Source: a virus. From it: a DNA stretch of 41,145 bases. Below, piece by piece: positions 17,601 through 40,965 of this stretch. Below the pieces are notes generated by a model. That model was not told the origin of the DNA. It made no database searches and saw only the letters and a program-made list of their open reading frames with translations. The stretch covers positions 1 to 41,145 of IMG/VR virus record IMGVR_UViG_3300028196_000027; one strand, written 5' to 3'. Positions within the stretch are counted from its first letter, which is position 1. Every line of letters starts with the position of its first letter. A program made the translations under genes and the position numbers.

Positions 17601-20600
17601 TGTGAGAGTGATATCTCCCGTGCTTGTATTATATACTGCATTCGATGGAGTATAAAAATCTCCTGCACCAGCAGCACCAACATATGCGGTGAATGTATCT
17701 GTTGTTACTCCAGTTACTTGAAGTAATCTACCTATTGCAAAATGATCACTTTCTGGTAGATAGTGCTCAGTAGCATTATTATCCATCGAACAAGTAAATG
17801 CAAATCCACCTTCTAATAGTTGAATTCTATTATCAGTAGTAACCGTATGTCCAATAGAAGTAACAGTAAATTCACCACTTAATGGATCATAATAAGCATC
17901 TGTTGGTGTTATATTTTGAATTAAACTTCCCGATTCATAAAAATGTGCTATGGTGGAAATACCAGCATTAAAGACAATAGTTGTGCCAGATGTTCCTGTA
18001 ATGGATCTGAATACATTGTATGTTCCCCCGAGAGTATTTGGACTACTCTGTGGGTATGCATCACCAAAAGTGTTTATACCTGCGGGATATGGGAAAATAG
18101 TAGATGTGATACCAGAATAGTCAGAAATACACGTTAATCTAATATCTTCAAGTTGTATATAATCTCCTTCTGGAAGGCCATGTGGTATTTCAGTTGTTAT
18201 TGTGCATATTCCAGCAGTTTCCTCATATTTAAAACTATTAATAGTAAATGTTGTAAATCCTGACCAGGATTCGCAAGTCATTGCAACTCCTGATAATCTT
18301 AGATAATCGTCTGGGATTAATCCATGTGGAGAATCCGTAATTACTGTAGTAATTCCTGTAGTATTTTCATATAAAAGATTAATAACATTTACAGTAGATG
18401 AATCGGTACTTGTTAATAATTCAGATGTTGGAAGTCGGAGTCTATCACCTATTTTGTAATATATTCCAGGATCTTCCATTTCAAATCCAATAATATCTCC
18501 TCGATTTCCAACTACAACCGATGCTTTAGCACCAGTTCCTTCACCTGGGGGTGAATTAACGTACTCAAGAGGAATATCACTGTATCCCGTAGGAATACTA
18601 ATTTCTAATTTTGGTGGTAATGTTGTGGCATAACCAGTTCCTGGTTCAATAATATCAATTGAAGTAATAACTCCACCTACTCCTATATTAGCAACTAACG
18701 ATGCCCCACTACCTACTTGTGATTCAACTTCAACTTGTGGTGCTGATCTATATCCACTACCAGATTGTTGTATATCTACACTCAATATCGTTCCACCTGC
18801 TCCAACTACTACGGTTCCACCTGCACCAATAAGTCTCTGATATCCTAACCCGGAATTGAAAACTGTTCTTGAAATCTTACCAGCACCTGGTGTTCCAGTT
18901 AAAAATTTAATTCTATTTCCCTTTTCTAATTGCAATCTATCGTTATCAACATCAAAGTCTGTTCCAGAAATCTGAGGAATATTGTTAATAAGAACTAATG
19001 GATTTAAGTTTGCATCAATACCACCAATCAAAACTGCTGAAGTATCGGTGAAGATACCAACTAATGGTTTGGTATTACTTGTTAAGAAAAACTCTGTTGA
19101 TGAAGCACCTACAAACTTTGTACTAATATCATCAAATATAACATTTTGATCATTAGGACTACTACCATAATCAACTTGTCTTGAGAATATTCTCCCATTA
19201 AAAGATGAATTTATTTCTAGACCTTCTGGTCCAATTGGACCAAATGGTGCAGATTTAAAATTAATCTCATCTCTAACAATATTAAAGTCCCCTCTAAGGA
19301 CTGTAACTGCTGCTCCAACAGTATGGTAACCAACTTCGGAACCCATTGTACCCCTAACTACTTCAACAGTGTTAGGACCATTTAATTCAACATCTTTAAC
19401 ATCAAAGTATTCGGAGTCAACTTGAATTGTATCTAAAGATGTTATTGAAGTAATTCCACTTAAATATAATGTTGTTGTATTAATATTAATTGGTTGAGTT
19501 AAAGTTCTGATTAAATCTCTTTTGAATAATCCACTTTGAATAATATTATCAACTAAAACAATTGAACTTGCATTAGGATTTTCATAAGTGAATGAATGCG
19601 TACCTATGCCAAAATTTCGTAATGTTATAAATGGTGATCCTGTTGATAATCCAGTAACTCTGAATCCATTATCATCAGTTTTTTGAATGTAAGAAACTGA
19701 AGGTATTGAATCTGCACCTAAGACTTCTGGAGCTAATTTTAAATCATCACCTGGAGTAATGCCCCCAATATAAGTTCCAGATATTCCAATAATACTTGTT
19801 AATGCATAACCAGCACCACCATTAGTGACTTCAATTTCATCAATATCACCCAAACTATCTCTTGTGAGAGTTAAAATTACACCAGAACCAGTTCCTAATA
19901 CTGTTTCTCCAGGAACTCCAACATAATTATTATTTGCTTCAGCACCGACTCTAGTATTGGTTGTATTTGAAACTGTAAATGATATGTCATTTGCTGGAGT
20001 ATTACCCCCAAAATATGTTCCAGAGATTGAAACTTGGTCTCCAATTGAGTATTTTAACCCCCCACTTCTCAACACTAATGAAGTTGATATTGCATCACCA
20101 GTAAATGAGTCATACACGATGAATGCATTAAATTTTGCATCAGTACCAAGACCAGTTGTGAAATATGATGGGAATGGGTCAAAAAATCCCCAAAATCTGT
20201 TTTGATTACCAGAATAATTTGGTGTTATTGGAGCAGTTAATCCAGAATATCCAGATTGTTCAATAGTACGATTATATCCATTCTCAAAGATAGCACTTCC
20301 TTTTCCTGAAGAAACATACATTACAACATGTGACTCGGTTGAAGCAACTGAGACATATGGATTATTATTTGAATCAAATTTAGTTACTCTTAATGAACTT
20401 TCAACATATTCAGTTGTAACTATTCCAACTTTTGTATCTGATGTACCTTCAGCTGGAAAATAACCTTTTCCAGGTTTTAGTACTGCTATTTGAGTAATTG
20501 CACCGTTAGCAATGATTGGATAGAATTCACCATATTCTAGTGGTGTTTTAGTACCCAAAACTTCAATTTTTGGTGGGTCAGTGCTTGCATAACCAGTACC

Positions 20601-34994: not shown

Positions 34995-36881
34995 TTATCT
35001 TGTATAAGTTCCGTTTGAGTAACTTGATGTTATAATATATTCTGTAGCTGACGTATTTTCTCCAGAAGTAATCTTATCTTCAATCATATTAACTATAAGA
35101 TTTTCTGAACTTAATTCTAAGTATATATCCTTCAATGCAATTACATCGTTTGACTCTGGAATTGCCTGAACTTCTATTCCATTAGGACTATTAGTTCCAA
35201 CTATATTTACTGTGTCTAATAATACTTCTCCTTTTTTATAATAAACAGTTCCTGCACTATTATTAACAATAAATGGAATATTATTTTTTAAACTAAAGAA
35301 AAATATTGTTCCATAGTCATTATTAACTGGAACATCAGACATATAAACTGTACCATCAACATTAGATATATTAAATCCTGTTGATTTAATATTATATCCT
35401 CTATTATCAATTACATTATTTTTCTTTATATGGAATCTATTACCAAAACACAACTCATAAGTTGCAAAAATATTTAACAGTGGTTGAAAATCTCTCCTCA
35501 TAATAACTTTCGTAATGTTTGATGTAATTGCTGGACTAATGCTATCAATCAATGCATTAACTTTACTATACTTAAATCTTCCTCCAAAATTATTTAATTC
35601 AAAAGAAGAACCGTAAGATTGTAGAGATTCTATGACCTGTTTTTGTAACTCTGATACTTCACCAATAGAACCTTTGTCATAGTAAACACTAGTATTCAAT
35701 TCTATGTAAAGATACTTTAAATCGATTATTTCTGGTTTGATACCAGCAATTGCATATTGCTTTAATTCTTTTTTAATTTGTTCTTTTGTTATTTTTGATA
35801 TAAACCTACCTTGTCTGGGTTTGACTGATATGAATACTTTACCATACTCTGGGGGATCTACTTCATCACCACCATAAGCACTAACTGATTCTACATTAGG
35901 AAAAATATATGGTATTAGTCCTTTGTAATCATTAGCAGTTACTGCTCTATATTGAGATGAATATACTCTAGGTGCGAGATATTTTACACTATCGATTTTT
36001 TCAATATCATCACCATTTTCAGATGCTGCTAATGTTGTAATTGGTGATATACCTGTAGTTATTTTATTTTGATTATTATCTTCTAAAATTCCGGTGAAAC
36101 TGAATTTAGCACAACCATTTCCAATTTTTCCATTAGTTACAATATAACTTGCAAAAACTGAACTTCCAGACTGTGGTCTCTTACCAAAAACATTATCACC
36201 AAAGATTATTTCATATGTTTCATCTTCTACTTCTTGAAATAAGAATATCTTAGAATTAGAATCAATATTTAATATATTTGAATATGCCTTATATTCTTCA
36301 GTTGTAGTCTCACTAACAAATACACGAATGCTTGTAGTATCAATACGTGGATTTGGTAGAACAAATCTTTGATTTTGTAAAGAATTGTTGATTGAGAATG
36401 ACTTTGTTAAAAATACACCCTCTGATATTAAAATGTCATTAAAAAATGCAAATCCTAAAGCATCAACAGATACTGTAATATCTTCTGGGATAGAAAAAAT
36501 ATAACTACCTGCTGAAATATCCCCTAATGCTACGACTCCTGCCTTTAATGTTACTGTTTTTACATCTAAAAATCCTTCAGTATTAACACTAAAACTAATT
36601 TTTGCTTTTGATGACCTTGCTGATCTAGGAACATATCCAATATTTCTGGCAAGTGATACTATATTTTCTCTAATAGTAGCACTATCTAGAAAAGATTCAT
36701 TTACCGTCATATTTGTGTTATATGACGTAATATAAGAATTATATGCTAGTAAATCAATTAACGTTGAAAAGTTTGAACCTTCAAAGTCAAAATCAGTAAA
36801 ATTACTGTTTTCTCTTAAGTAATCTTTTAGTTGGATTTTTAGATTATCAAAATCTAAATTTGTAAACTGATTAAACGACAT
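34995..36881 (-). CDS. 6: baseplate wedge protein gp6, 628 aa
   Basis: This is a textbook T4-like gp6: MSFNQFTNLDFDNLKIQLKD, then DFEGSNFSTLIDLLAYNSYI and ESFLDSATIRENIVSLARNI followed by GYVPRSARS. The central part has the Baseplate_J-like core (EIIFGDNVFGKRPQSGS, YRAVTANDYKGLIPYIFPNV, YGKVFISVKP), and the C-terminal third has LNNFGGRFKYSKVNALIDS. Length is close to T4 gp6 (660 aa). gp6 dimers form the ring that ties wedges together around the hub. It sits six bases after the gp25 stop, the order seen in T4-like marine phages. Confidence 0.96.
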   Translation of the reverse strand: MSFNQFTNLDFDNLKIQLKDYLRENSNFTDFDFEGSNFSTLIDLLAYNSYITSYNTNMTVNESFLDSATIRENIVSLARNIGYVPRSARSSKAKISFSVNTEGFLDVKTVTLKAGVVALGDISAGSYIFSIPEDITVSVDALGFAFFNDILISEGVFLTKSFSINNSLQNQRFVLPNPRIDTTSIRVFVSETTTEEYKAYSNILNIDSNSKIFLFQEVEDETYEIIFGDNVFGKRPQSGSSVFASYIVTNGKIGNGCAKFSFTGILEDNNQNKITTGISPITTLAASENGDDIEKIDSVKYLAPRVYSSQYRAVTANDYKGLIPYIFPNVESVSAYGGDEVDPPEYGKVFISVKPRQGRFISKITKEQIKKELKQYAIAGIKPEIIDLKYLYIELNTSVYYDKGSIGEVSELQKQVIESLQSYGSSFELNNFGGRFKYSKVNALIDSISPAITSNITKVIMRRDFQPLLNIFATYELCFGNRFHIKKNNVIDNRGYNIKSTGFNISNVDGTVYMSDVPVNNDYGTIFFFSLKNNIPFIVNNSAGTVYYKKGEVLLDTVNIVGTNSPNGIEVQAIPESNDVIALKDIYLELSSENLIVNMIEDKITSGENTSATEYIITSSYSNGTYTR

Positions 36882-36887
36882 TATTCT

Positions 36888-37283
36888 TTAAGTTGGTGAT
36901 AAGATGAAATTTACTTTTTGTGGTAAAATACCTAGACCAATAATGTCATAGACAACTTGAACATTCAATTCATTACCGTCTTCTGTAATATCAACATCAA
37001 TTCTATCAATTTTAATTCTTGGTTCATAGTTATCAAGGGCAGATCTGATATCATCCCTTACCGTAAATACTACATCTTGAGTAGCATTCTCAAATATATA
37101 ATCATTTATCCTGGTTCCAAGATTAGCATCAAAAAATCTTTCACCTAATGAAGTTCTTATGATATTAGATACGGATTTTTTAATTGCATCTTCATTCTTA
37201 AGAATTAAAATATCATTAGTTACGGGATGTTTAGTAAAAGATAAACTAATATCTTTAAATGACCTTGAAACCTCTATTGACAT
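36888..37283 (-). CDS. 25: baseplate wedge protein gp25, 131 aa
   Basis: Length equals the T4 gp25 class (132 aa) and the GPW/gp25 fold signature is present: LSFTKHPVTNDILILKNEDA, IKKSVSNIIRTSLGERFFD, LGTRINDYIFE, and the closing strand NVQVVYDIIG. gp25 starts wedge core assembly with gp6 and gp53 and resembles the sheath-initiator subunits of other contractile systems. No clear ribosome binding site precedes ATG at 37283. A degenerate ATTAAATA (37299-37306) might be a weak late promoter. The gene opens the structural block here. Confidence 0.95.
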   Translation of the reverse strand: MSIEVSRSFKDISLSFTKHPVTNDILILKNEDAIKKSVSNIIRTSLGERFFDANLGTRINDYIFENATQDVVFTVRDDIRSALDNYEPRIKIDRIDVDITEDGNELNVQVVYDIIGLGILPQKVNFILSPT

Positions 37284-37322
37284 TAAAGATTTACACTCTA
37301 TTTAATATATCTATAAGAGTTT

Positions 37323-37472
37323 TTAAATTGTTTTATTTTTTTTCTGTTCATTAAGTGTTTCTTCTGTACCATTCCTCTTTTTTGGCTTGGTCCAATAGTC
37401 TGTTATTAACGATGTAGTTCCCCACATCTTGTACATGTACTCAGTATCTCTGTCAACATGATACTTTGCCAT
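37323..37472 (-). CDS. small hypothetical protein, 49 aa
   Basis: ATG at 37472 opens 49 codons ending in TAA at 37323. The protein begins MAKYHVDRDTEYMYKMWGTT and has a Lys/Asn/Glu-rich tail (NEQKKNKTI). It is preceded by a strong AGGAG five bases from the ATG, and the frame fills the gap between gp25 and the 211-aa gene, which supports coding. No domain is recognised. The aromatic-rich middle (Tyr, Trp) and charged tail suggest a small folded head with a disordered C-terminus. Confidence 0.65.
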   Translation of the reverse strand: MAKYHVDRDTEYMYKMWGTTSLITDYWTKPKKRNGTEETLNEQKKNKTI

Positions 37473-37477
37473 TTTTG

Positions 37478-37498
37478 CTCCTGTTTTGTGAAAAACAG
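37478..37498 (-). promoter_or_regulatory. hairpin overlapping ribosome binding site of 49-aa gene
   Basis: On the minus strand, CTGTTTT and AAAACAG (37481-37498, loop TCAC) form a perfect 7-bp stem. Its 3' arm runs into the AGGAG (37478-37482) that serves the 49-aa gene, so pairing would mask the first bases of the ribosome binding site. It could dampen translation or act as an operator; this is inference from sequence only. Confidence 0.4.
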
Positions 37499-37530
37499 AA
37501 CTTTTTGAGGGGTTCTATCCCTTTTTCTAT

Positions 37531-38166
37531 TTACTCTTTTTCTAAATTCTTAATCTCATACATGTAATGATCAGAAGTTTCCAGTTTTTTCTTATTTTCA
37601 ACTGAATAAACAGTCAAATCAATCTCATAACCAGGATTTTTCTCAATTCTATTGAATACCCAAGCATTATCGTACCAAATAATACGATTGTTGGGGTATG
37701 CATAGTAATTCCCAGTCTCAACTTTGAACAAATGGGCACATTTATGCTCTGGAGTCTCCGAAAAATTTAAATCTGGCACTCCCTTGTTCTCCCAAGACCA
37801 ATCTAGGGTGAACATATATGTTCCAAGTACCTTTTTTCCGTCTGGACGTATCAATTGTGCATCTAAATTAGCTAGTCTATGCCTTCTCTGAACGTCTATG
37901 TAAGGTGAAAAGCAGTCCCAGTACATTATGTCCTCTAAAGGCTCTATGGGTGCGTCTTCTTTCCAGCAAAAGGCATGTAAAGGTCGTCTAGTCCAGTTCA
38001 CACCGTTCTCTAGAAATGCTTCAAAGAGAGGAACTCTCTTCTCAATACTAGCAACAGAGTGAATGTCACACTTTGTAACCTCCCCATGTCCTTTTTTATG
38101 GTTATAAAGGAACTCATTACGAATATAACAAGACCAATCAGGTAAACTATGGTTTAGGTAAGCCAA
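37531..38166 (-). CDS. conserved hypothetical protein, 211 aa, TTG start
   Basis: The frame begins at TTG (38166), chosen because AGGAG stands seven bases upstream and no in-frame ATG occurs until about residue 80. It overlaps the SET-domain gene by 13 bases. The protein is rich in Trp, Tyr and His (MAYLNHSLPDWSCYIRNEFL, FTLDWSW, KCAHLFKVETGNYYAYPNNR, IIWYDNAWVF). I recognise no catalytic motif or named family; proteins of this kind occur in T4-like cyanophage genomes as hypotheticals. Scattered Cys and His (HALFCWK-like, EHKCAH) could bind metal, but no regular zinc motif is visible. Partnership with the SET protein is suggested by overlap only. Confidence 0.8.
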   Translation of the reverse strand: MAYLNHSLPDWSCYIRNEFLYNHKKGHGEVTKCDIHSVASIEKRVPLFEAFLENGVNWTRRPLHAFCWKEDAPIEPLEDIMYWDCFSPYIDVQRRHRLANLDAQLIRPDGKKVLGTYMFTLDWSWENKGVPDLNFSETPEHKCAHLFKVETGNYYAYPNNRIIWYDNAWVFNRIEKNPGYEIDLTVYSVENKKKLETSDHYMYEIKNLEKE

Positions 38167-38525
38167 CCTCTTTCTCCTGGGAAGTAATAATCTGTTAATT
38201 CTTCACCTTTTTTGATATCACGAACAGAATATAACTCACCAGTGTCCTTATTGTATGCAACGTTTGGTGAATTTGAGTGATTTATGTAATATTGTTGTCC
38301 AATACGGTCTAAATCACAGTCAATCCAAAACCCATGCTCATCACCATACACTAGGTTTTCTATATTGTTCCTGATTTCGGGTGAAACTTCACACCAAAAT
38401 ACATGTTTCTTCTCTTTTGGTTTAAAAATACAGGTATCTTGAGGAATATCAACTAAAGAAAAAACACCTACTCCACCACAAACGGAACTAGGTGCCAAAT
38501 AAGTTAACAATTGAAGGTTATACAC
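38154..38525 (-). CDS. SET-domain protein lysine methyltransferase-like, 123 aa
   Basis: SET hallmarks appear in order: GGVGVFSLVDIP (residues 17-28, the GxG strand), YYINHSNSPNV (79-89, equivalent of the NHxxxPN motif that binds S-adenosylmethionine and forms the pseudoknot), and SVRDIKKGEELTDYYF (100-115, with the catalytic-site Tyr region G-E-E-L-T-x-Y). At 123 aa it is a minimal SET domain without pre- or post-SET cysteine clusters. It starts at GTG directly after the TGA of the basic 47-aa gene, with GAGG four bases before. The expected activity is S-adenosylmethionine-dependent lysine methylation of a protein; the target is unknown. SET-like proteins are known in cyanophages. Confidence 0.88.
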   Translation of the reverse strand: MYNLQLLTYLAPSSVCGGVGVFSLVDIPQDTCIFKPKEKKHVFWCEVSPEIRNNIENLVYGDEHGFWIDCDLDRIGQQYYINHSNSPNVAYNKDTGELYSVRDIKKGEELTDYYFPGERGWLT

Positions 38526-38669: not shown

Positions 38670-38719
38670 GATTAATTAATCTCCTTTTTAACGGTTTTTT
38701 CGGGTTTTTTTTTCTTATT

Positions 38720-38757
38720 AAAAGACCCTCAGAAGAACTCATATCTCTCCTAAGGGT
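38720..38757 (-). terminator. intrinsic terminator after glycosyltransferase-like gene
   Basis: On the minus strand a 12-bp stem (ACCCTTAGGAGA with TCTTCTGAGGGT, two G-U pairs) closes a 9-base loop and is followed by CTTTT. It lies about 50 bases past the stop of the 251-aa gene and just before the leader of the 47-aa gene, so it should separate the two units. Confidence 0.75.
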
Positions 38758-38777
38758 ATTATATCAAAAGATTGGTT

Positions 38778-38798
38778 GAAACGTCAAGTAGACGTTTC
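38778..38798 (-). other. perfect 8-bp stem-loop next to stop codon
   Basis: GAAACGTC and GACGTTTC pair perfectly around a 5-base loop, starting ten bases past the stop of the 251-aa gene. No clean T-run follows on the minus strand (AACCAATCTTTT), so it is more likely a 3'-end stabiliser or an upstream helper of the terminator at 38720-38757. Confidence 0.5.
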
Positions 38799-38808
38799 TA
38801 AAAGAACA

Positions 38809-39564
38809 TTAGATGACTCTAGTCTTCTCATGTCCAACACGAATCTTTGGATCGCACCAAATCTCAAATCCTGCTTCTTTTGCATCGAGACAGAATGAGA
38901 CATCTTCCCCGCACATATCTTGCACTTCACCAGAATCAAACACCTGCATCTTCGGAGCAAACCAGGGATACTCAAGATTCTCAAATACTCCCTTCTTAAT
39001 TAATACCCATCCGAAACCTGTGTAGTCAACTGTGAATGGTTTGCGACGTTTTGCCATGCTCTCAAGTGTCTCATGATTCATAACTCCACCATTGTTCTTG
39101 AAGTCATCCTCTTCTAACCAATGAGCAACTGATGATGTCTTTCCATCTTCTGTACAATACCATCCAGATGCAATGTCCTGGTCCATATCAACTAGACGAT
39201 AAAACTTCTCAGTATCAAATACAATATCACTATCAATCCATAACTGATAGTCATACTTCAATTTACCATCCCATGGTACTTGCTTTGGTCCACGCAATAC
39301 ATTTGCACCTAAACACTTACAACGTGCAAAGTTCACCATTGAACTATAATCTTGTGAAATCTGAATGCTTGCACCGTTCTGAACTAAGTCAAAACATAAC
39401 TGCACAAAACTCTTCAGAAATTGATATGATACTCCTCTTCCAGGAAGACAAAATACTACCGACTTCCCACGAATCTTTTCCTTTGCCCTCTCCATATTAA
39501 ATGCATCAGCATTCTCTGGATTTATTACCGGGGCTTTTGCTTTTACTGTGAATCCTTTAGCCAT
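38809..39564 (-). CDS. glycosyltransferase-like protein (GT-A fold), 251 aa
   Basis: After a short polar leader, residues 33-45 (GKSVVFCLPGRGVSY) form the first beta strand and nucleotide loop. Residues 106-115 (YQLWIDSDIV) contain a D-x-D motif (Asp111, Asp113), as in metal-dependent GT-A enzymes. Residues 182-195 (TGFGWVLIKKGVF) and 218-247 (MCGEDVSFCLDAKEAGFEIW, then VGHEK) match the acceptor-side 'E-D' and terminal His of GT2-like folds. Similar proteins occur in cyanophages. It probably moves a sugar onto phage DNA, protein or a host surface polymer; donor and acceptor are unknown. It has its own promoter and terminator, unlike its neighbours, so it may be expressed independently. Confidence 0.8.
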   Translation of the reverse strand: MAKGFTVKAKAPVINPENADAFNMERAKEKIRGKSVVFCLPGRGVSYQFLKSFVQLCFDLVQNGASIQISQDYSSMVNFARCKCLGANVLRGPKQVPWDGKLKYDYQLWIDSDIVFDTEKFYRLVDMDQDIASGWYCTEDGKTSSVAHWLEEDDFKNNGGVMNHETLESMAKRRKPFTVDYTGFGWVLIKKGVFENLEYPWFAPKMQVFDSGEVQDMCGEDVSFCLDAKEAGFEIWCDPKIRVGHEKTRVI

Positions 39565-39775: not shown

Positions 39776-39915
39776 TCAGTGTCTTCTACTTTAAACAATA
39801 AATCTTCAAGATCCTCTCGTAATAACTCATTCAGTTTTACTATCTTATCATTCTCTAATCTATATTGAAGAGTCTCAATTAATAATTCCCTCTCCTCTCT
39901 TGTAAATTCTAACAT
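39772..39915 (-). CDS. small acidic helical protein, 47 aa
   Basis: ATG at 39915 opens 47 codons ending in TGA at 39772. The sequence (MLEFTREERELLIETLQYRL, then ENDKIVKLNELLREDLEDLL) is rich in Leu and Glu with heptad-like spacing, as in a short coiled-coil or helical hairpin. No strong ribosome binding site precedes it; a promoter-like pair lies only 13 bases upstream. The function is unknown. The four-base overlap with the next frame supports both. Confidence 0.6.
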   Translation of the reverse strand: MLEFTREERELLIETLQYRLENDKIVKLNELLREDLEDLLFKVEDTE

Positions 39916-39927
39916 TGCATTCTTTTG

Positions 39928-39956
39928 ATGATACTTACTTAGTCTCTATATATCAA
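39928..39956 (-). promoter_or_regulatory. candidate sigma70 promoter of two small genes
   Basis: Minus strand: TTGATA (39951-39956), 17 bases, TATCAT (39928-39933), each one base off consensus. The predicted start near 39921 leaves a leader of only about six bases before ATG 39915, so transcripts would be nearly leaderless. This weakens the call. Confidence 0.4.
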
Positions 39957-40035
39957 CCCTATAGGTGATTTTTTATTGGTGGAAAATTTTTTATTCTAAA
40001 TTGTTTTCTTATATCGAATTATATATCACTCGCAG

Positions 40036-40078
40036 ACGCATACTTTTGTAGGTTAGGGACTTATGCGTTTTTCTTTTC
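40036..40078 (+). terminator. possible rightward intrinsic terminator
   Basis: ACGCATA (40036-40042) and TATGCGT (40062-40068) pair perfectly across a 19-base loop, followed on the plus strand by TTTTCTTTTC. The T-run is on the plus strand although all nearby genes are on the minus strand. It would stop a rightward transcript that is otherwise unaccounted for. The stem is short for the loop. Confidence 0.35.
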
Positions 40079-40193
40079 GGACCCCCCATCGGTTTATAAT
40101 ACTTTACATCATTAATCGCAATATACTGTGTTTATAACACATAGCACTGTTTAATTATAATGCACGAACAATAACGAATACTTATTATACTGT

Positions 40194-40230
40194 ACTGTTT
40201 AATTATAATTAGAAACCCTATAGGAGGTAT
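40194..40230 (+). repeat. 37-base composite repeat, copy 1
   Basis: The motif ACTGTTTAATTATAAT is followed by AAACCCTATAGGAGGTAT. The second part can fold (ACCC with GGGT-like ends). The unit aligns without gaps to 40369-40405 at 29 of 37 positions. AGGAGG precedes an ATG at 40231 that opens 13 codons. Confidence 0.65.
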
Positions 40231-40306
40231 ATGATAACGAAGGTCTGTATATTTCTTCTCAAACAACACTGAGTAATTAGAATTAAGAATGTATTACCCA
40301 GGTATC

Positions 40307-40335
40307 ATGATATCATAACACGAAGGTATTGTCAA
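40307..40335 (-). promoter_or_regulatory. strong sigma70-type promoter, leftward
   Basis: Minus strand: perfect TTGACA (40330-40335), 17 bases, TATCAT (40307-40312) with an upstream TGA that makes an extended -10. This is the best host-type promoter in the window. A start near 40300 would give a leader of about 385 bases before the 47-aa gene at 39915. Confidence 0.65.
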
Positions 40336-40368
40336 CACTTAGGACTGCTTATAACGAACTCAAACAAC

Positions 40369-40405
40369 ACTGCTTAATTGTAATATAAAACCCTACTGGG
40401 GGTAT
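40369..40405 (+). repeat. 37-base composite repeat, copy 2
   Basis: Partner of 40194-40230: ACTGCTTAATTGTAAT followed by AAACCCTACTGGGGGTAT. An ATG begins within its last bases (40404) and opens nine codons. The shared parts are the 16-base motif and the ACCCTA..GG.GGTAT hairpin; the linker between them differs. Confidence 0.65.
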
Positions 40406-40499
40406 GGAATATCTCACAACACTGTGTAATTAGAATACACGAACACTGTGTATTACTTCCCTCCCTCAGAACCACCCTAGTAGTCTACAGCATAAACAA

Positions 40500-40694
40500 T
40501 GAGACTACTGTGTCTCGTGGACACTTCTCAAAGTGGACGAGTCTTATAAGTCTCATAATTCTTGTGAGATTCTGACCATTTTCTCTGATTCTCTCTGAGT
40601 CTCATGAGAACTGTGATTCTTATAAGTCTCACGGAAATCTACGAAAATCTCTGAGTCTTACTCAGGACGAATAAGACTCAGAAATCTCAGATTT
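40500..40694. repeat. inverted-repeat cluster built from GAGTCT/AGACTC words
   Basis: In under 200 bases there are a perfect 10-bp inverted repeat (CTGAGTCTTA 40651-40660 and TAAGACTCAG 40672-40681), an adjacent AAATCT/AGATTT dyad (40682-40694), the palindrome TCTCATGAGA, TCTCA/TGAGA around 40552-40568, and GAGAC/GTCTC at 40501-40516. CTTATAAGTCTCA occurs twice. No coding frame explains the pattern. Confidence 0.7.
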
Positions 40695-40741
40695 TATTTG
40701 TCAACGAATTATATGCCAGTTCTCTGAGTGTCTTTTATCCC

Positions 40742-40770
40742 TTGACTTTTTTTCGTTTTTATGATACACT
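40742..40770 (+). promoter_or_regulatory. candidate rightward sigma70 promoter
   Basis: Plus strand: TTGACT (40742-40747), 17 bases, TACACT (40765-40770) with TGA before it (extended -10). It points right, against all genes, toward the end of the minus-strand frame at 40966, so the product would be non-coding or antisense. Confidence 0.45.
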
Positions 40771-40871
40771 GCACGCCAAGACAACAATAAGATCACACAT
40801 TTATAAGAACAATAAACACGAATAACCTCTCATATAACGATTAATTATCATCAAAACAAAACACGCAACTA

Positions 40872-40879
40872 TATTTATT
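40872..40879 (-). promoter_or_regulatory. late-promoter-like AATAAATA
   Basis: AATAAATA on the minus strand inside the gene-free region. The nearest downstream gene start is almost 1 kb away (39915), so a late transcript from here would be mostly untranslated. The AT-rich context makes chance occurrence quite possible. Confidence 0.3.
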
Positions 40880-40905
40880 TTAACATTTAATTAAAAGTGA
40901 AAATA

Positions 40906-40913
40906 TATTTATT
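40906..40913 (-). promoter_or_regulatory. second late-promoter-like AATAAATA
   Basis: Same motif 34 bases upstream of the previous one, just past the stop of the right-edge gene. The doublet, and the AACTTGAA direct repeats next to it (near 40913 and 40935), make it slightly more interesting than a lone match. Confidence 0.3.
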
Positions 40914-40965
40914 CAAGTTCCTTGGGGGTATATTTCAAGTTACTTCGTAGTATCTTTGGAGTGTA

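Follow-up and report, generated by a model that had tools for sequence, protein, structure and literature searches.

The window, as the whole stretch of DNA analysed here is called, was a virus contig of 41,145 bases with its real genes on the minus strand, and the named records closest to it by DNA were myoviruses of Synechococcus and Prochlorococcus. Baseplate wedge genes of gp6-like (34995-36881) and gp25-like (36888-37283) type were located on the minus strand, and a glycosyltransferase-like gene was found at 38809-39564. Near the baseplate block, a 123-aa SET-domain protein (Pfam PF00856, E 3e-11) was encoded on the minus strand at 38154-38525, a protein-lysine methyltransferase-like gene, and a SET-domain gene was annotated in the same neighbourhood in Sf-CH1b. 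Right of the baseplate/glycosyltransferase block lay a gap of 1,050 bases flanked by minus-strand ORFs ending at 39915 and 40966, the ORF beyond the gap running off the contig end. According to the ORF list, the longest ORF within the gap was 45 aa, and no Pfam match at E ≤ 0.1 was obtained for the seven small gap ORFs searched, so that a coding gene inside the gap was ruled out. A tRNA was ruled out as well, none being found in the window, and so was a known RNA family, with no Rfam match in the window at the gathering score. The remaining gaps between real genes, read from the ORF lists, were 0-66 bases long, with two larger exceptions of about 247 bases (37284-37530) and 139 bases (38670-38808). 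This agreed with the preliminary description of the DNA, which had reported more than 1 kb free of genes where other gaps were mostly under 70 bases. In the close relative L100 the gap was largely unchanged (96% mean column identity over an aligned 1.4 kb). BLASTN of the gap gave short weak matches only, some to cyanophage intergenic stretches and others to unrelated phages, and in the cyanophage places compared two elements, A and B, were present in the same order. The features of this gene-free stretch, referred to below as the hub, are displayed in Table 1.

Table 1. Coordinates of the hub and of the features within it (window positions)
Feature	Position	Strand	Basis
Whole gene-free hub	39916..40965	.	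ORF lists, Pfam
Element A, core TTGTAGGTTAGGG at 40046-40058	39955..40085	.	profile; one strong match per record
Five CACTGNNTAATTANAAT copies (40145, 40193, 40267, 40368, 40420)	40145..40436	+	mismatch scan against shuffles
Three ATAACGAA words (40171, 40234, 40351)	40171..40358	+	word enriched and strand-biased upstream of B
Leftward sigma-70-type promoter TTGACA-17-TATCAT, TG preceding second hexamer	40307..40335	-	promoter scan
CTGAG / GACTC repeats and inverted repeats reaching the B promoter	40539..40740	.	repeat scan
Element B promoter TTGACT-17-TACACT	40742..40770	+	opposite to flanking window genes; conserved in relatives
B conserved core GCACGCCAAGACAACAA and CATTTA-type block (presumed transcript start)	40771..40815	+	alignment
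Conserved AT-rich block TATATTTATTTTAACATTTAATTAA, candidate unwinding element	40870..40894	+	motif scan, AT content

Element A consisted of an A/T-tract block, the core TTGTAGGTTAGGG (with the variants TTATAGATTAGGG and TTATAGCTTAGGG) and then a T run. The profile of A, built from 33 sequences, gave one strong match (E ≤ 3e-6) in each of the 18 records first tested, all others being weak (E ≥ 0.003), and it also matched 15 of 15 further cyanophage genomes. Element A was present in all 24 whole cyanomyovirus genomes examined (W01-W21 and W23-W25, of which 23 were titled complete genome and S-SKS1 "genomic sequence"); six of the 24 had contributed sequences to the profile, and P-HM1 and P-HM2, both of one species, matched only weakly (E about 1e-4). 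No match to the A or the B profile was found in T4. A leftward open frame started within 150 bases of the A core in 91 of 119 cases, compared with 268 of 590 random positions, and on the other side of the core such a start was seen in 19 of 119. Counted simply as a leftward frame having A upstream of it, the numbers were 117 of 119 for A and 464 of 590 for random positions. In the left block of A a TATA[AT]A[AT] box was counted on the minus strand in 55 of 119 cases and on the plus strand in 26 of 119. We take element A to be a putative leader or promoter region of leftward genes. A plus-strand terminator was rejected as an identity for A: the ACGCATA/TATGCGT stem before the T run in the window was, by eye, not kept in relatives. 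A conserved RNA fold was rejected for A and B alike, RNAalifold finding no base pairs in either.

Element B was composed of a TTGAC -35 hexamer, a -10 hexamer, the core GCNCGCTAAGACNACAA, a CATTTA-type block, a variable spacer and an AT-rich block (40742-40894 in the window). Its profile was built from 26 sequences and at E ≤ 1 matched 14 of 16 records, one match each, several of these records having supplied profile sequences; an additional, promoter-only match was seen in the L100 contig. Among the 24 whole genomes, 15 had a same-strand copy of B to the right of A, in some cases by a weak match (E up to 0.016), while two had their sole match elsewhere on the other strand and seven had none. 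In four of these nine profile-missed genomes (P-TIM40, S-SM1, S-SSM5 and Syn33), B cores could be recognised by eye. In all 59 loci with both elements, some of them near-duplicates, A preceded B on the same strand at a distance of 430-5,767 bases. The gap of the window corresponds in essence to the interval between A and B. In most relatives this interval holds possible small genes, and it was free of ORFs of at least 60 aa in only 5 of 44 loci.

The spacing of the B promoter fell in two classes, as seen for example in S-PM2, S-SM1 and L094 versus the window, with TTGACA either 17 bases ahead of a TAAGAC-type core or about 31 bases ahead of the core with TATGATA between them. The core was kept in both, and the start of B transcription is uncertain and may differ because of these two classes. 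The AT-rich block of the window was among three places in 41 kb that reached 91% AT over 45 bases, and in many loci the block was found some 100-230 bases past the point where the B profile begins. The AT-rich motif TAYRTTTTTTTAAYCATTTWTTTAA, with at most 5 mismatches, followed B in 18 of 33 loci, compared with 3 among 330 random intervals and none among 330 shuffles, a comparison that is partly circular because the motif was derived from some of the tested loci. The conservation of the block was also visible directly in the loci themselves. In L023, L033, L065, L004 and L098, the stretch separating the B core from the AT-rich block held tandem duplications that differed in length, so the spacer length seems free to change.

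Right of B, the summed ORF length was mainly on the minus strand in all 33 scorable loci, 18 of the 51 loci being too short for scoring. The longest ORF ran against the B transcript in 28 of these 33 loci and on the plus strand in five, including L089, and the transcript from B may be coding in some loci. The longest ORF was a plus-strand one in L089 (174 aa) and a minus-strand one in L096 (200 aa), both 2OG-oxygenase-like by eye, with the direction of B kept. In S-PM2 (L106) an annotated tRNA-Leu at 19252-19333 overlapped B and the AT-rich block, and many further tRNAs were annotated in the same 30 kb stretch, yet ARAGORN found none there. The idea that B is a tRNA remnant was rejected on this basis; the promoter, core, AT-rich block and boxes were all present at the annotated tRNA-Leu. 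A host source of the B core was also rejected, since the listed matches to its 16-base pattern in bacteria and archaea spanned many phyla in a chance-like manner.

Two repeat systems and promoter-like sites facing both ways had been described in the hub beforehand. With up to 2 mismatches, CACTGNNTAATTANAAT had seven matches in the window, five of them inside the gap, compared with 1.3 expected over 41 kb, and none of 100 shuffles reached seven. For CTCTGAGTCT, all five matches with up to 1 mismatch were within the gap (1.9 expected), and this second system, only slightly above chance, is weak taken alone because 2 of 100 shuffles reached the same number. Signals existed on both strands, but the number of promoter-like sites in the gap (7 versus 5.6 in shuffles) was at the level of chance, and that of terminator-like sites (2 versus 0.2) was above it. 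Two individual promoters stood out, the leftward one agreeing with the consensus at 11 of 12 positions and the rightward promoter of B at 9 of 12; the promoter half of the B profile matched the leftward promoter weakly (E 0.44). The conserved part of the hub did not consist of the two repeat systems, exact CACTGNNTAATTANAAT copies being found upstream of B in only 2 of 51 non-redundant loci (three copies in the window and one in L003). Over the 900 bases preceding B (44 kb across loci), the word ATAACGAA was counted 38 times on the plus strand and twice on the minus strand, compared with 17 plus and 12 minus in 423 kb of other sequence; two or more copies were present in only 8 of 51 loci, and the window hub had three. 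Conservation in the hub attaches to elements A and B, joined in many loci by DnaA boxes and ATAACGAA. The CACTGNNTAATTANAAT copies of the window overlapped the range of distances from B that holds DnaA boxes in L010, L012 and L003, and the CACTGNNTAATTANAAT and ATAACGAA repeats may be binding sites of another protein.

DnaA boxes are a feature of bacterial oriCs. The cyanobacterial box is given as TTTTCCACA (PMC4674748), and a strict form, TTWTCCACA, was counted at the 51 non-redundant B loci, which had been chosen regardless of boxes. In the 600 bases upstream of B there were 50 strict boxes in 29.8 kb (1.68 per kb) and in the 350 bases downstream 27 in 17.1 kb (1.58 per kb), compared with 12 in 420 kb elsewhere (0.029 per kb), an enrichment around B of about 57-fold. 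The highest numbers per locus were eight (L012) and seven (L010 and L003); two or more boxes were found in 17 of 51 loci, and 31 of 51 had none within -600 to +350 of B. Counting downstream of B alone, boxes were present in 6 of 37 loci. The 24 whole genomes contained 130 boxes; the stretch within 1.5 kb of A held 29 of these, compared with 2.0 expected, and this clustering was matched by none of 20,000 random anchors. All 18 pairs of boxes at most 60 bases apart were located between A and just past B (0.25 expected by random placement).

The hub box pairs belonged to 12 of the 24 genomes (Syn9, S-PM2, S-WAM1, S-SKS1, S-SM1, S-SM2, S-ShM2, S-SSM5, P-SSM7, Syn19, Syn33 and Syn1); in S-PM2, S-SKS1 and Syn1 the A-B distance was 3-6 kb and the boxes lay at B. 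The S-SCSM1 hub had one box only, and 11 genomes had no box in the hub (P-TIM40, Sf-FS3, S-SSM7, P-SSM2, P-SSM4, S-RSM4, P-HM1, P-HM2, Bellamy, Sf-CH1b and P-RSM4). An exact search for TTWTCCACA in the window hub also gave none. T4 had five scattered boxes and no pair. A scan of IMG/VR for three tandem TTTTCCACA copies yielded at least 118 loci, and the reversed control yielded 0. Among the listed triplet loci, some of which overlap one another, 76 of 118 carried A and/or B (in loci of up to 15 kb), 52 of them both, and 42 of 118 carried neither. An AT-rich element stood beside the boxes after B in S-PM2, Syn9, S-WAM1 and IMG/VR loci, and where boxes lay upstream of B the AT-rich block was still located after B. 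In Syn1 (GU071105, 58713-58745) three boxes followed B directly at exact 12-base spacing, and in P-SSM7 (GU071103, 46602-46631) element A itself contained a second box pair, in addition to the one at B. The annotated gp86 and gp87 of Syn9 (DQ149023, 52477-52797) overlapped B or its boxes and are perhaps not real genes. The titles and abstracts of open-licence papers yielded no report of DnaA boxes in cyanophages or T4-like phages.

In the named phages compared, the hub kept its place where the small-gene region meets the baseplate side. The cumulative GC skew proposed with the preliminary description turned out mixed, and GC and AT skew in eight genomes showed no consistent switch at the site. 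A detrended GC maximum lay within 12 kb of A in four of the eight (Syn9, P-TIM40, S-WAM1 and S-SCSM1) and a detrended GC minimum within 1 kb of A in Sf-FS3, and nothing near A was seen in S-PM2, S-SSM7 and S-SKS1. Skew was uninformative here and was dominated by the single gene direction.

The earlier proposal of a replication origin or a regulatory hub bordering the small-gene cluster fitted these results, with a conserved position and host-type DnaA boxes clustered there. If the site were regulatory only, divergent promoters would mark the border between leftward genes and a rightward antisense RNA over the small-gene cluster, and DnaA would act as a transcription factor. The leftward frames starting close to A, the strong leftward promoter and the longest ORFs opposing the B transcript are consistent with such a role, and an antisense RNA is known in the cyanomyovirus S-PM2 (PMC2984593). 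However, the conserved AT-rich block next to B and the close box pairs at one place in 12 genomes would be left unexplained, and we consider a purely regulatory hub unlikely.

A packaging (pac) site, with A, B or both recognised by the terminase, would account for one strong copy per record in a conserved direction. In S-PM2, sequencing reads were 2-3 fold deeper immediately downstream of the ORFanage, which the authors ascribed to terminal redundancy (PMC4503421), and A and B of this phage (at 25.1 and 19.3 kb) lie downstream of the deleted 5.8-15.3 kb. Since such a site would not be expected to carry a promoter, an AT-rich block and DnaA boxes, this explanation appears highly improbable. The hub could also be the debris of a decayed small-gene stretch with leftover promoters and leaders, given the possible small genes in the A-B interval of most relatives and the small-gene content that varies between S-PM2, Syn9 and others. 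But order, core sequences and the AT-rich motif were conserved across divergent loci, and L100 keeps the hub largely unchanged, so that decay is hardly credible.

In our judgement, the hub is probably the replication origin of T4-like cyanophages. Its layout was a rightward sigma-70-type promoter, a conserved core and, in many loci, an AT-rich block, at one strong place per record, and in many relatives two to eight host-type DnaA boxes were found beside this layout. The best reading of these sequences is a single origin with a T4-type promoter and unwinding element, to which many members would add host oriC-type DnaA boxes. More specifically, one conserved hybrid origin may unite a T4-style promoter-primed unwinding element with host oriC machinery, some lineages having lost the boxes or replaced them with other repeats, as in the window; this version is held tentatively, with the doubts slightly ahead. 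In the members free of boxes, the window included, the origin reading rests on the homology of A, B and the AT-rich block, and the genome counts are not independent events because the genomes are related.

Read from sequence, position, conservation and clustering, the predicted steps at the origin are transcription, R-loop formation, DnaA binding and initiation. Early in infection, host RNA polymerase would transcribe rightward from B into the AT-rich block, and the B RNA would stay paired to its template as an R-loop and prime the leading strand in the manner of T4 oriF. At hubs with boxes, these would be bound by host DnaA, which would help to open the AT-rich block and load the replisome, and element A with the leftward promoter would drive the leftward genes. 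The window, which has the promoter and the AT-rich part without boxes, would therefore use either the R-loop route or a different protein that binds the CACTGNNTAATTANAAT repeats. As half of the whole genomes have no box pairs, the use of DnaA, if real, is not universal. The hub would give an exact, testable place for the origin, with element A as its marker in all 24 whole genomes examined, and it raises the possibility that the host initiator DnaA is recruited by a T4-type replisome. If true, infection would be linked to host replication control, and a natural handle would be available for replicating test plasmids.

Origins of the T4 oriF/oriG type form a persistent R-loop, and about 100 bp suffices for autonomous replication. 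According to a review on T4 replication, both oriF and oriG depend on a promoter together with an A+T-rich unwinding element, and the oriF transcript forms an R-loop there and is very likely the leading-strand primer (PMC3016281). The hub is similar in that a promoter closely precedes a candidate A+T-rich unwinding element and its transcript is the presumed primer. It differs in that its promoter has a sigma-70-type -35 TTGAC whereas T4 has a MotA site, and a MotA-dependent middle-mode promoter does not fit the hub, the TTG of the -35 TTGAC being nearly invariant (alignment A1) and cyanomyoviruses being described as without motA in a 2010 review (PMC2984593). Further, DnaA boxes are present in the hub of many members, whereas "DnaA" is absent from the main text of the T4 replication review (PMC3016281), and the hub is one conserved site per genome whose A and B are unmatched in T4. 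With the cyanobacterial oriC (PMC4674748) the hub shares, in part of its members, a cluster of TTTTCCACA beside an AT-rich stretch; it differs in being viral, with a dedicated promoter and core, and in having box pairs in 12 of 24 genomes only. Searches in the titles and abstracts of open-licence papers for replication origins of cyanophages or Kyanoviridae, and for theta replication of Syn9, gave nothing relevant beyond PMC2984593. In that review, a single theta origin is reported as predicted for Syn9 (Weigele 2007, as cited in PMC2984593), and whether other cyanomyoviruses have a theta origin is stated to be not known as of 2010. The hub resembles this prediction as a single origin in a T4-like cyanophage, and with A, B and boxes of Syn9 located at 52.5-53.6 kb, the origin predicted earlier (Weigele 2007) is perhaps situated here.
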